Shown here piece after piece: positions 14,436-18,700 of a DNA stretch of 64,000 nt. Position numbers and translations under genes: made by a program. The DNA is taken from assembly GCA_028819845.1 (NCBI GenBank), contig JAPPKS010000032.1:62001-126000 (forward strand), written 5' to 3'. The notes under the pieces are model-generated. The model saw nothing but the letters and a program-made list of their open reading frames with translations, searched no databases and had not been told where the DNA came from. Origin of the DNA: Candidatus Poribacteria bacterium (GTDB lineage: Bacteria > Poribacteria > WGA-4E > PCPOR2b). Numbering within the stretch: the first letter of the stretch is position 1; every line of letters begins with the position of its first letter.

Positions 14436-15290
14436 GCGGCAATATACCTTTGAGTGGAGAGCCCATGAACCGATTTCTTGAAGGACTAGATACTTTACCC
14501 TTTCATAATACCATATTTCGATTGGCTTTTCTACAGTAGATAAATGCTACTACGTACGAGTGTGCTACGTATTAGCAAATTTTGTATTGGCCACGGAGAT
14601 GGTTTGAAAATTGTGCTAGTATCAATTCGGGCTTGGAAATCTAAGCGGACGGGCATGGCGGAATGGCTTCCATTTACTGCACGGTTCAATAAATCGAGTT
14701 TTCAAGAAAAAAATACGGTTGCAAACCTATCGACTTTTTTGCAAATATTGGTGAACTCAAAAAAACTCAGCAATGCATTGAGAGATTAATCTCGTCCAAT
14801 GAGTGCACAAAACAGGGCAAGGTTTGGTTCAAAATGCACCGTTTGGTGCAAGACCGAGCTACGGTGAGGGTTTCTTGGCATTGAAAGGGATAGTGTGGCA
14901 AAAATGATACAGTCATGACGATTTATTTTTTGGGCTGAAGTTGGTGTCACAATGGCGAACGGGAAAGCGTGCCTTTTTCAGAAATAGACATACCCAATTT
15001 CTCGCACGGACAACGTCTCACACGACGAAGTGACAAGTTGGTGCATTTTCCATTTATGCCGCCGAACTCTCATTGCACGATTTTCGGACAATCCCGTCCA
15101 TGTATTGAACAGTTTATCGGGCAACAATCCCTATCCGACTTCATTTTAAAGCATTCCGAACTGGCATCATACTTGCTATAAATAGAAGTAAACACTAATT
15201 GGAGAATCGGTTTTATGCTGATTGCAGTGCCGTTTTCTCTTCCCGGTACGGCAAGACTAGCCGAACTATTCGCAAAAGGAGGTTACCCCA
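14436..15290. other. Long intergenic region with one interspersed repeat and a candidate promoter
   Basis: 855 bases without a supported gene. It contains a family A repeat at 14628-14730. Near the right end TGCTATAAA (15175-15182) looks like an extended -10 element for the TonB-like gene, but no good -35 precedes it. The strong AAAGGAGGT at 15277-15285 is that gene's ribosome-binding site. Two short plus-strand ORFs (14544-14789, 14969-15181) have no recognisable features and I do not call them. Confidence 0.4.
14628..14730. repeat. Interspersed repeat family A, copy 1
   Basis: Begins CGGGCTTGGAAAT and ends CGAGTTTTCAAGAAAAAAAT. It aligns along its length with 31296-31395 and more loosely with 29600-29698. 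The right end contains the imperfect palindrome of the family, AACCGAG-TTTT ... AAAA-C(T)CGGTT, here degraded. Confidence 0.6.
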
Positions 15291-16082
15291 ATGAAATCTC
15301 GTTACAAATACCGCTTCTGGTTAATGTCTCTAGCGGTACATCTATGTCTCGCGATTGTGTTTAGATTAATCGCCATCAACCAAATTAATTCTAGAGAAGT
15401 TGATGCCTTAAATGTGAGCATTCTGAAAGTTAAACCGATAAAGCCCGTAGAGAAATTACCGTATGTCAAGACACCTATCTCCGTGCCGATAATACCTATG
15501 CCTGACATTCAAATCGAACGACAGATAGCGTCGGCGCAGTCGCGGGCTCTGACGACTCATCCTGGACGATCTGCCTCCGTATTTGCGGCGAAGGCTACAG
15601 CGGTGAATTCCCTAGTTTCTCAATCTACTACGCAAGCCGCGCGCGCCGAAATATCTGTCCAAGGACTCGTTCAGTCTTCTCGTGCCAATCGCCAACCGGC
15701 CCAACCTCTTGCTACTGCTGTCGATCTTCCGCTTCACTCGAATGCCCCGTTAACGTCGGGGGTGAGCGGAGGCGGTTCGCTCTCGGAAGGCGTTGGCGGC
15801 GGTTTCAGCGGCGGACATAGGGTTGTCAGTTCAGGAAGCAATGTGGATGGGACCAGGGAAAGCGGCCGTATCGGATTGACTTCGTTGATTGGTGCCGAAG
15901 GTGCTGCCAACATTGACGACGCGCTTTCCGATGTCGCTGACAAGGTAGCATTGGGAGGCGGCATGCCTGAGCTCCCCCATGGTATTCCCGGTGCTATCGT
16001 GGTGGGGCGCGGTCGAAATATAATGGGGCGATTAAACTTGGCGCGTTTTGAAGATCCGCTACACCCTAGTGCAGACATATGA
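15291..16082 (+). CDS. TonB-like N-terminal half of a DUF4159-type protein
   Basis: A 263-residue reading frame after a strong AAAGGAGGT (seven-base gap). Residues 8-29 form one membrane segment, followed by a Pro/Lys-rich periplasmic stretch (KPIKPVEKLPYVKTPISVP) as in TonB-type anchors. A Ser/Ala/Gly-rich linker follows with SGVSGGGSLSEGVGGGFSGG. The end reads AIVVGRGRNIMGRLNLARFEDP, resembling the start of a DUF4159-associated domain, and then stops at TGA 16080-16082. The same frame stays open after that stop directly into the DUF4159 region. This CDS is therefore best seen as the upstream half of an interrupted gene. Confidence 0.7.
   Translation: MKSRYKYRFWLMSLAVHLCLAIVFRLIAINQINSREVDALNVSILKVKPIKPVEKLPYVKTPISVPIIPMPDIQIERQIASAQSRALTTHPGRSASVFAAKATAVNSLVSQSTTQAARAEISVQGLVQSSRANRQPAQPLATAVDLPLHSNAPLTSGVSGGGSLSEGVGGGFSGGHRVVSSGSNVDGTRESGRIGLTSLIGAEGAANIDDALSDVADKVALGGGMPELPHGIPGAIVVGRGRNIMGRLNLARFEDPLHPSADI
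16080..16082 (+). other. In-frame TGA inside the TonB-like/DUF4159 gene
   Basis: The two halves are in the same reading frame and only this TGA separates them. The 16 codons between the stop and GTG 16131 are open and read GNGVGNFRFGAGLSYL, flowing into the DUF4159 region. A single-base change (for example TGA from CGA) would restore one protein of about 538 residues. Confidence 0.75.
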
Positions 16083-16130
16083 GGCAACGGTGTCGGCAAT
16101 TTCCGATTTGGGGCAGGTCTGTCCTATCTA

Positions 16131-16907
16131 GTGCAATCGCTAAATGAAAAAACTAAGATAAAAACACAGTTTGTCGATTCGGTCGGAATGAACGATTCCG
16201 GGTTCTTTCAGGCACCAATCATATTCATGGAGCCGATACCCGGTGGATCCAATTTAAGCCCAGAACATCTAAAGCGAGTATTCAACTCTCACAGTAATCC
16301 AATTTGGAATACTAGGCGTCCGGGTGGATTAAGTAAGTATACAGACTCTGAAGTTCAAAGTCTGCGGGAGTATGTGCTGCATCGTGGGGGATTCATCTAT
16401 ATGGCGACGCATGGAAATGCGGAAAATGCCATGAGAGGTACAAGGAAAGTACTTCGGAGCCTCCTGCCTGAGCATCAACTCGGCATTGTTCGCAATGATC
16501 ACCCGATTTACAACACATACTATTCGCTAAATGGCCCCTTACGTTTTCCCTTGCGCAAGATTACCTCAATGGGGGGCCATAGCATTCCCCTTCACTTTGG
16601 GCCATATTCGGAACTGCAGGGTATCACTATAGACGGGCGGCTTGCCGTTTTGGTTGATACTGAACAGATGATGCATGTAGTCGATGGAGCAGTTCAGAAG
16701 CCCTTCTACGGCAAGTTCAAAAATAAGAACCAGATTCTAGTGGAACTTGCGCCGCATGCAGCGCGCCAACTAATCAACATTGTCGTCTATGCGATTACGC
16801 ACGGGAATATTTCGGATTACAGCAACTACATTCCCGAAACGGTTTTAAATGATTCAGCCGACGACGGTTTTTGGAAGAATGCACCAAATGCCGCGCAGAA
16901 ATTGTAG
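16131..16907 (+). CDS. DUF4159-domain half of the interrupted gene
   Basis: A 258-residue frame if begun at GTG 16131, for which no good ribosome-binding site is visible. The DUF4159 (PF13709) signature is present: FFQAPIIFMEPIPG, SEVQSLREYVLHRGGFIYM, a central RSLLPEHQLGIVRNDHPIYNTYY, and ITIDGRLAVLVDT. LVELAPHAARQLINIVVYAITHG closes the domain. The fold is a Rossmann-like GATase1-like domain of unknown function, usually exported or membrane-anchored. The domain appears to begin upstream of this GTG, inside sequence that lies before the TGA. The protein would therefore lack its anchor if translated alone. Confidence 0.7.
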   Translation: MQSLNEKTKIKTQFVDSVGMNDSGFFQAPIIFMEPIPGGSNLSPEHLKRVFNSHSNPIWNTRRPGGLSKYTDSEVQSLREYVLHRGGFIYMATHGNAENAMRGTRKVLRSLLPEHQLGIVRNDHPIYNTYYSLNGPLRFPLRKITSMGGHSIPLHFGPYSELQGITIDGRLAVLVDTEQMMHVVDGAVQKPFYGKFKNKNQILVELAPHAARQLINIVVYAITHGNISDYSNYIPETVLNDSADDGFWKNAPNAAQKL

Positions 16908-17056: not shown

Positions 17057-18700
17057 ATGGAGAACTTAATCCGTTACTCTTACCTTGGTCTGTTTATTTT
17101 TGTTCTGTTTGTGTTTTTCGTTGGTTGCGGCGGTGACGATTCCGAAGATGTCGGTCCGAGGATAGTGTCATCGCCGGAGGGAGTCATCTCAGGTTCCGTT
17201 ACAGATTTGGTCACCCATGCTGGAATTGCAAATGCGACAGTCAAGTTGTCTACGAAAAAGAGCGTTACAGACGAAAAATCCATCTTTGAGGAGGTCGCAA
17301 CTACAACTACCGATGCTAATGGCATCTTTAGGTTTGAATCGCTCAAAAGCGGCGACTATAACCTGCGCATTTTAGCGCTTGGTTATCTGGAACAACGAGC
17401 GGCAGTGAGCGTCACTCGCAAAGATTCGGCAACCGTTGATTTCCGCCTTGAACCCGGCGTTAAGTTTGAGGGCAAGGTTATATCTAACGACGGCAATCCA
17501 GTGCGAAACGTCCTGGTTACATTGGGCGACCGCGCGTCAGTTACGAACACTACGGGACAATTCATAATTGCCCCAGTTTCCGATGGACAATACGATTTGA
17601 CGGCAGAAAAACCGGGTTATGACACAGTAGACATGCCGGGTATCACTATCGGTGACAGAAATGTCGTACAAAATATTTCTATTCGACGCAAAATGACTGG
17701 GCAAATTGTCTTCGCTCGCGGAAATGTTGCCGGCGAGGACTTTTTTGGAATTTCAGTCATTGACGCAAACCGTGCAAACGAGACGGCGCTTACTCACTTT
17801 TTCGACGACCAACCTAGCTGGTCACCGAATGGCGGGCAAATAATCTTCAGTCGCTCAGAAGGCGGTGCCCCACCACAAATCTATGTAATGAATAGCCGCG
17901 GCGGCAATACGAGGTCAATCAGCGGCGACATTTTCAATGATCGGCATCCGGCTTGGTCACCTGATGGGGACCGCATTGCTTACGTTCATTCGAAAGCCCT
18001 TCGAAAGCCGTCGATTTACATCATGGATGTGAACGGAGAAAATCGCGTTAAACTTTCCTTCTGCGAGGCAGACTCGAAACCGACTTGGTCGCCTGACAGC
18101 ACCCAGATTGCGTATTCTTATGATAGAAATCTCTTTGTGGTGGACATTGAAGCGTTTCTTGCCGCTGACGCGGCACTCCCACCAGAAGTAGAACCGGAAC
18201 CAGAACCGGAGCCAGAACCGGAAATGGAGCCCGAGCCGGAGCCAACGCCCGTCCCGATACCAGTGCCGGAACCGGAGACTAAACTGCATGAATTAATACG
18301 TGCAGCGCAAGAGGAGTATCAACCGCCCCAAGCACCGGTCGTCATTGCGTCAGTAATAGAAGGCGGCGTTGAACGGTTAACGGAGGGCTTAGACACCGAA
18401 CTCCACCCGGATTGGAGTCCGGACGGTTCTAAGTTGGTGTTTACCAAAGAAGTATCTCTGAGCCAAGCTGCGATATGTGTATTAGATTTGTTTTCACGGG
18501 ATCGAACCACCTTGACCAGCGAGGACAGTTACAATGGCTATCCGTGTTGGTCTCCGGACGGGACGAAGATTGCTTTTAGCAGCGACCGCAACGGCAGTTT
18601 CGGTATCTGGGTTATGGATGCAGACGGCAGCAATGTCACGTCACTTTTCGATGAGTTGGGCCAGGATGATATCCTCAGTCAGCACTCATGGCGCCAGTGA
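17057..18700 (+). CDS. Lipoprotein with carboxypeptidase-regulatory-like and PD40/TolB-like repeats
   Basis: A 547-residue protein. MENLIRYSYLGLFIFVLFVFFVGCGG is a lipoprotein signal with a V-G-C lipobox. Residues of about 45-120 and 130-195 are two CarboxypepD_reg-like beta-sandwiches (ISGSVTDLVTHAGIANATV; FEGKVISNDGNPVRNVLV). Then come PD40 propeller blades with the repeated PSWSPNGGQIIFSR, PAWSPDGDRIAYVH, PTWSPDSTQIAYSY, PDWSPDGSKLVFTK and PCWSPDGTKIAFSS. A Glu-Pro linker of about 40 residues (EPEPEPEPEP, 18190-18275) splits the propeller. It is likely a surface scaffold for binding peptides or glycans; no catalytic residues are seen. Confidence 0.85.
   Translation: MENLIRYSYLGLFIFVLFVFFVGCGGDDSEDVGPRIVSSPEGVISGSVTDLVTHAGIANATVKLSTKKSVTDEKSIFEEVATTTTDANGIFRFESLKSGDYNLRILALGYLEQRAAVSVTRKDSATVDFRLEPGVKFEGKVISNDGNPVRNVLVTLGDRASVTNTTGQFIIAPVSDGQYDLTAEKPGYDTVDMPGITIGDRNVVQNISIRRKMTGQIVFARGNVAGEDFFGISVIDANRANETALTHFFDDQPSWSPNGGQIIFSRSEGGAPPQIYVMNSRGGNTRSISGDIFNDRHPAWSPDGDRIAYVHSKALRKPSIYIMDVNGENRVKLSFCEADSKPTWSPDSTQIAYSYDRNLFVVDIEAFLAADAALPPEVEPEPEPEPEPEMEPEPEPTPVPIPVPEPETKLHELIRAAQEEYQPPQAPVVIASVIEGGVERLTEGLDTELHPDWSPDGSKLVFTKEVSLSQAAICVLDLFSRDRTTLTSEDSYNGYPCWSPDGTKIAFSSDRNGSFGIWVMDADGSNVTSLFDELGQDDILSQHSWRQ

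Follow-up and report, generated by a model that had tools for sequence, protein, structure and literature searches.

The stretch of Poribacteria DNA analysed here (64,000 nucleotides; the window) carries on its forward strand two open reading frames, 15291-16082 (263 amino acids, ending in TGA) and 16131-16907 (258 amino acids), that share one frame with no further stop between them. Together they form a continuous frame of 538 codons that contains the TGA at 16080-16082 and runs to a final stop at 16905-16907 (Table 1); an earlier note on this DNA had likewise seen two ORFs in one frame, with no frameshift. TGA is otherwise an ordinary stop in the window, as the note had also held, terminating 13 of the 42 non-overlapping ORFs of at least 200 amino acids, and the genetic code is thus not globally changed.

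Table 1. Features of the DUF4159 gene and its putative recoding signals (positions within the window)
Feature	Position	Strand	Basis
Shine-Dalgarno AGGAGG, strong, 8 nt 5' of ATG 15291	15277-15282	+	Sequence
Whole putative selenoprotein gene, 538 sense/Sec codons plus stop	15291-16907	+	Single internal TGA; full-length homologues align across residues 1-538
N-terminal hydrophobic segment, about residues 8-31, probable membrane anchor	15312-15383	+	Translation
His258, invariant in the Sec/Cys family, missing from ordinary DUF4159 paralogues	16062-16064	+	Comparison with paralogues
In-frame TGA, codon 264, putatively read as selenocysteine	16080-16082	+	TGA retained at 41 loci; Cys codon in 3 relatives
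Small conserved hairpin of the long form only, lying between the TGA and the SECIS core	16092-16107	+	RNA folds
Candidate bSECIS hairpin UGGGGCAGGUCUGUCCUA with the AGGUCU loop of E. coli fdhF, the loop beginning 33 nt past TGA	16109-16126	+	Folds; published model (PMC13188914)
DUF4159 (PF13709), best-matching stretch	16335-16793	+	Pfam
His374, replacing an invariant Cys of ordinary DUF4159 paralogues	16410-16412	+	Comparison with paralogues
His462, replacing a second invariant Cys of ordinary DUF4159 paralogues	16674-16676	+	Comparison with paralogues

In the read-through protein, Pfam places DUF4159 best at residues 349-501, with 60.6 bits against a curated cut-off of 25.9. Homology to ordinary DUF4159 paralogues nevertheless extends across the TGA, so that the break does fall inside a conserved region, as the earlier note had maintained. 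Its description of the N-terminus as TonB-like, by contrast, found no backing, since Pfam gave no family for residues 1-263 at E values up to 1.

The next gene downstream, at 17057-18700 on the same strand, encodes a PD40/carboxypeptidase-regulatory-like protein that combines a PD40 beta-propeller and carboxypeptidase-regulatory-like domains and also contains a stretch of Pro-Glu repeats. Several genomes of the family to which the window belongs have relatives of it adjoining their selenoprotein gene. In another Poribacteria family (L072-L080), the genes downstream encode a rhodanese and then 6-pyruvoyl tetrahydropterin synthase and GTP cyclohydrolase I, a linkage that is possibly mere synteny. 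No neighbour is conserved universally across the phylum, and a search of a plasmid collection gave no match.

Conservation of the TGA and cysteine-encoding relatives

The same genome holds a second copy of the gene (G000:C25:98946-100547; L002, L009) that is 90% identical over 1623 bases, with zero gaps and the same TGA. This paralogue sits in a different neighbourhood, among WD40-type genes. Relatives were present in all nine genomes searched within the family, and the 85 genomes searched across the phylum yielded 41 loci in 39 Poribacteria genomes that match over the full length and have exactly one internal stop, which is always TGA and is retained down to about 45-50% protein identity. Among 84,980 species genomes scanned, 18 loci were confirmed, every one from Poribacteria (45-71% identity). 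Two loci that looked like TGA-less exceptions, in G004 and G060, were rejected, as a contig end interrupts the first and a run of N the second.

Aligning the homologues across the TGA, as the earlier note had proposed, revealed a cysteine codon at exactly the TGA column in three relatives (TGC in G008, TGT in G005 and G007), each of which is a single uninterrupted ORF. In the tree, these Cys forms are nested among the Sec forms, and well-supported branches force two separate Sec-to-Cys changes. The Cys copy of G008 (L026, G008:C1:3453100-3454716) lies about 4 kb from a Sec copy (L035, 3457436-3459052).

A short version of the protein, to which Pfam assigns DUF4159 just as it does to the long form, occurs in G002 (L054/L139, G002:C886:3876-4718) and G001 (L140, G001:C68:5282-6052). 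It begins with a lipoprotein-like N-terminus, continues with PLHW-U-NT-FGAGLPY, where U stands for the predicted selenocysteine, and then enters the same domain. Each short form has its own TGA, together with a hairpin, GGGGCAGG(T/G)CTGCCT, whose spacing of 18 nt is like that of fdhF. As a predicted selenoprotein with a recoding signal of its own, the short form is independent support for the selenoprotein reading, and it is apparently a second new subfamily.

A candidate SECIS element and the decoding machinery

A scan for a SECIS-like hairpin, likewise proposed in the earlier note, located one 33 nt downstream of the TGA. Counting the T of TGA as 1, nucleotides 30-47 fold as UGGGGC-AGGUCU-GUCCUA, or more generally GGGGC-AGGUCU-GYCCU, with a stem of 6-7 bp and a GGUC loop (AGGUCU when the closing pair is included). 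The latter is identical to the loop of the E. coli fdhF SECIS, the identity of the fdhF sequence having been confirmed. The published model of bacterial SECIS elements requires a spacing of 16-37 nt, into which the 33 nt fall, a G within the first two loop positions and an energy limit of -7.5 kcal/mol (PMC13188914). At -6.9 kcal/mol, the hairpin core of the window is slightly weaker than this limit; most relatives reach -8.6, and the two-hairpin element of core and adjoining hairpin attains -11.3 kcal/mol in the window.

The clearest trace of a signal at the RNA level comes from synonymous sites. In a codon alignment of 32 Sec sequences, restricted to columns with an invariant residue other than Met and Trp, only 5 of 103 columns use one and the same codon throughout. 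Counted from the TGA, these are Arg (+8) and Gly-Ala-Gly-Leu (+10 to +13), and all five fall inside the hairpin or border it on the 5' side. Codons for invariant residues show a mean divergence of 0.09 from +1 to +15, versus 0.49 elsewhere (Mann-Whitney p = 1e-4, to be taken as a guide only, the sequences being related). Among 18 distinct sequences, pairing stands at 99%, against 34-56% when slid; the small hairpin at 16092-16107 is maintained as well, its pairing being 98%. These 18 contain no two-sided, compensatory base changes, and because the element is nearly invariant, covariation speaks neither for nor against the hairpins. The 60-nt fold is no more stable than shuffled sequences, and Rfam, applied to the window and to the TGA region, found just one tRNA besides chance-level matches. 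A genome-wide search for the loop, GCAGGTCTG, gave 27 matches, about as many as a control pattern, and no further selenoproteins; only the two gene copies combined a TGA at most 40 nt upstream with open frames to either side.

Among the Cys forms, the loop AGGTTT of the G005/G007 pair would be expected if an RNA signal decays once it is no longer needed, and the AGGTCT kept in the Cys copy of G008 is likely a relic of a recent Sec-to-Cys change.

Is the genome equipped to decode such a signal? Looking up selA, selB and selC, also suggested earlier, gave selA (594 bits), selB (373.8 bits) and a tRNA-Sec with anticodon UCA (77.5 bits) next to one another on one strand of contig C21. The selD gene (377 bits; L136, G000:C10:184709-185632) has one in-frame TGA of its own, in the context KCAG-U-ASK, and is thus itself a selenoprotein gene, as is known for selD in other bacteria. 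Since selB is near-universal in the phylum (76 of 85 genomes, and 55 of the 56 of good quality), its mere co-occurrence with the selenoprotein gene adds little.

The locus resembles bacterial selenoprotein genes with a bSECIS, of which E. coli fdhF is the type case, in its in-frame UGA, AGGUCU loop, spacing within the 16-37 nt range, Cys homologues and full SelA/SelB/SelC/SelD machinery. It differs from fdhF in the spacing (33 nt here versus 18 nt), in the extra conserved hairpin that intervenes and in its product, the DUF4159 protein being unrelated to formate dehydrogenase.

How, then, should the TGA be understood? The conserved UGA, the Cys of relatives, the SECIS signature at synonymous sites and the complete Sec machinery all support its reading as selenocysteine, and on these comparative grounds we regard the gene as very probably an intact selenoprotein gene. 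Among the alternatives, a true split gene, whose first product would end at the TGA and whose DUF4159 domain would arise as a separate protein by reinitiation, has a slim chance. The window copy does offer a GTG at 16131, 16 codons past the TGA, but the earlier note's remark that no convincing ribosome-binding site precedes it proved apt, there being no Shine-Dalgarno close by, and the column holds GTG in just 4 of 32 homologues. Not until an ATG 49 codons past the TGA, already within the domain, do all 32 share a column of start-type codons, and the residues up to that ATG are conserved both as protein and as RNA hairpin. Moreover, where the note had asked about homologues that naturally end at the TGA and are followed by a separate gene, the three Cys homologues run on through the cysteine, and a start codon just past the TGA is not conserved.

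A programmed read-through by a near-cognate tRNA, for Trp or another amino acid and independent of selenium, is slightly less probable still; it could appeal to the Trp that 14 of 14 ordinary DUF4159 paralogues have at the aligned column, but sense-codon relatives in the same subfamily have Cys, never Trp, and the SECIS loop and Sec machinery are in place. A nonsense mutation, pseudogene or sequencing or assembly error at 16080 is the least credible. A lone stop in an otherwise open frame is indeed how such an error would look in one genome, but the same TGA stands in the 90% identical paralogue and recurs at 41 loci across 39 genomes that were assembled independently, with the downstream half still open and conserved. 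Of the options left open by the earlier note, the nonsense mutation and the sequencing error thereby lapse, and selenocysteine is the one borne out by the Cys homologues, the hairpin and the genes of the Sec pathway.

In the selenocysteine reading, the hairpin 33 nt downstream would direct decoding of the UGA at 16080 by SelB with Sec-tRNA-Sec(UCA), and selenocysteine would presumably be incorporated to give one protein of 538 residues, consisting of an N-terminal membrane anchor, a low-complexity linker and the DUF4159 domain. The product is thus conceived as most likely a membrane-anchored DUF4159 selenoprotein, with its domain presumably outside the cytoplasm.

The DUF4159 domain and a possible Sec/His site

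A first structure model, built from 11 sequences, was poor (pLDDT 52.5); a second, from 23 sequences, reached pLDDT 67.5 and pTM 0.76 and was used for the fold only. Compared by Foldseek, the second model matched the DUF4159 protein Hoch_4089 (PDB 4i66) with E = 1.7e-9 and probability 1.00; this is also the sole solved chain found by sequence. Pfam and fold comparison agree on the domain. The model puts residue 264 in the loop that joins the first strand to the first long helix and His374 directly after a later strand, the confidence of both loops being low to moderate.

Relative to the 14 ordinary Poribacteria DUF4159 paralogues, the Sec family has Sec (or Cys) in place of Trp at 264 and His in place of Cys at both 374 and 462, and each of these exchanges is invariant on both sides. 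Taken together, the replacement of Trp by predicted Sec and of two Cys by His suggests a Sec/His site. That the three positions form one site, in which the family would use Sec with His, is the weakest step of the argument. Its chemistry could be metal or metalloid handling, or redox reactions with external thiols. As a tentative proposal, Sec264 together with His374, His462 and perhaps His258 might make up an anchored oxidoreductase or a metal- or metalloid-binding site. A somewhat bolder version, to be held more lightly, would see here a new type of Sec site outside the thioredoxin fold, in which Trp/Cys/Cys has given way to Sec/His/His to create a membrane-anchored, metal- or metalloid-handling or redox centre specific to Poribacteria.

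It is also conceivable, with nearly the same plausibility as the anchored Sec/His proposal, that Sec264 works by itself, as a residue of peroxidase or reductase type that external thiols resolve, and that the replacement of Cys by His at 374 and 462 has nothing to do with it. The domain has no other conserved Cys, most studied selenoproteins are redox proteins (PMC13188914) and a rhodanese gene comes next in 9 loci of one clade, all of which would suit a lone Sec; however, the rhodanese linkage is confined to that clade, and the three positions differ invariantly and in step from the ordinary paralogues, which hints at one shared site.

Place among known selenoproteins

Among the 119 prokaryotic selenoprotein families inventoried in 2026, DUF4159 does not appear (PMC13188914), and NCBIfam has no model for a DUF4159 selenoprotein. 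Its CTP synthase C-terminal region-related selenoprotein (NF004836, GxUxG), already listed as a selenoprotein, is similar in that its amidotransferase-type domain distantly resembles the DUF4159 fold; it is a different family with a different motif, and the Poribacteria protein has no NCBIfam match at all. The literature searched, supplementary files and subscription journals apart, contained no paper with the term 'DUF4159' and none with both 'Poribacteria' and 'selenoprotein'; the part of a sponge metagenome paper that reports SelA and SelB in symbiont bins names no selenoprotein there (PMC5649159). Absence from these sources being no proof, this is apparently an undescribed selenoprotein family, decoded by the standard bacterial mechanism.

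If so, standard ORF calling cuts in two a gene that is whole, and the Sec/Cys pairs, one of them with its SECIS loop intact, provide a compact example of Sec-to-Cys turnover. The locus would add a family to the selenoproteins that do not have the thioredoxin fold, here from a phylum without cultured members whose bacteria are largely sponge-associated. DUF4159, which has no assigned function, would gain a candidate active residue and two co-exchanged positions that are directly testable.
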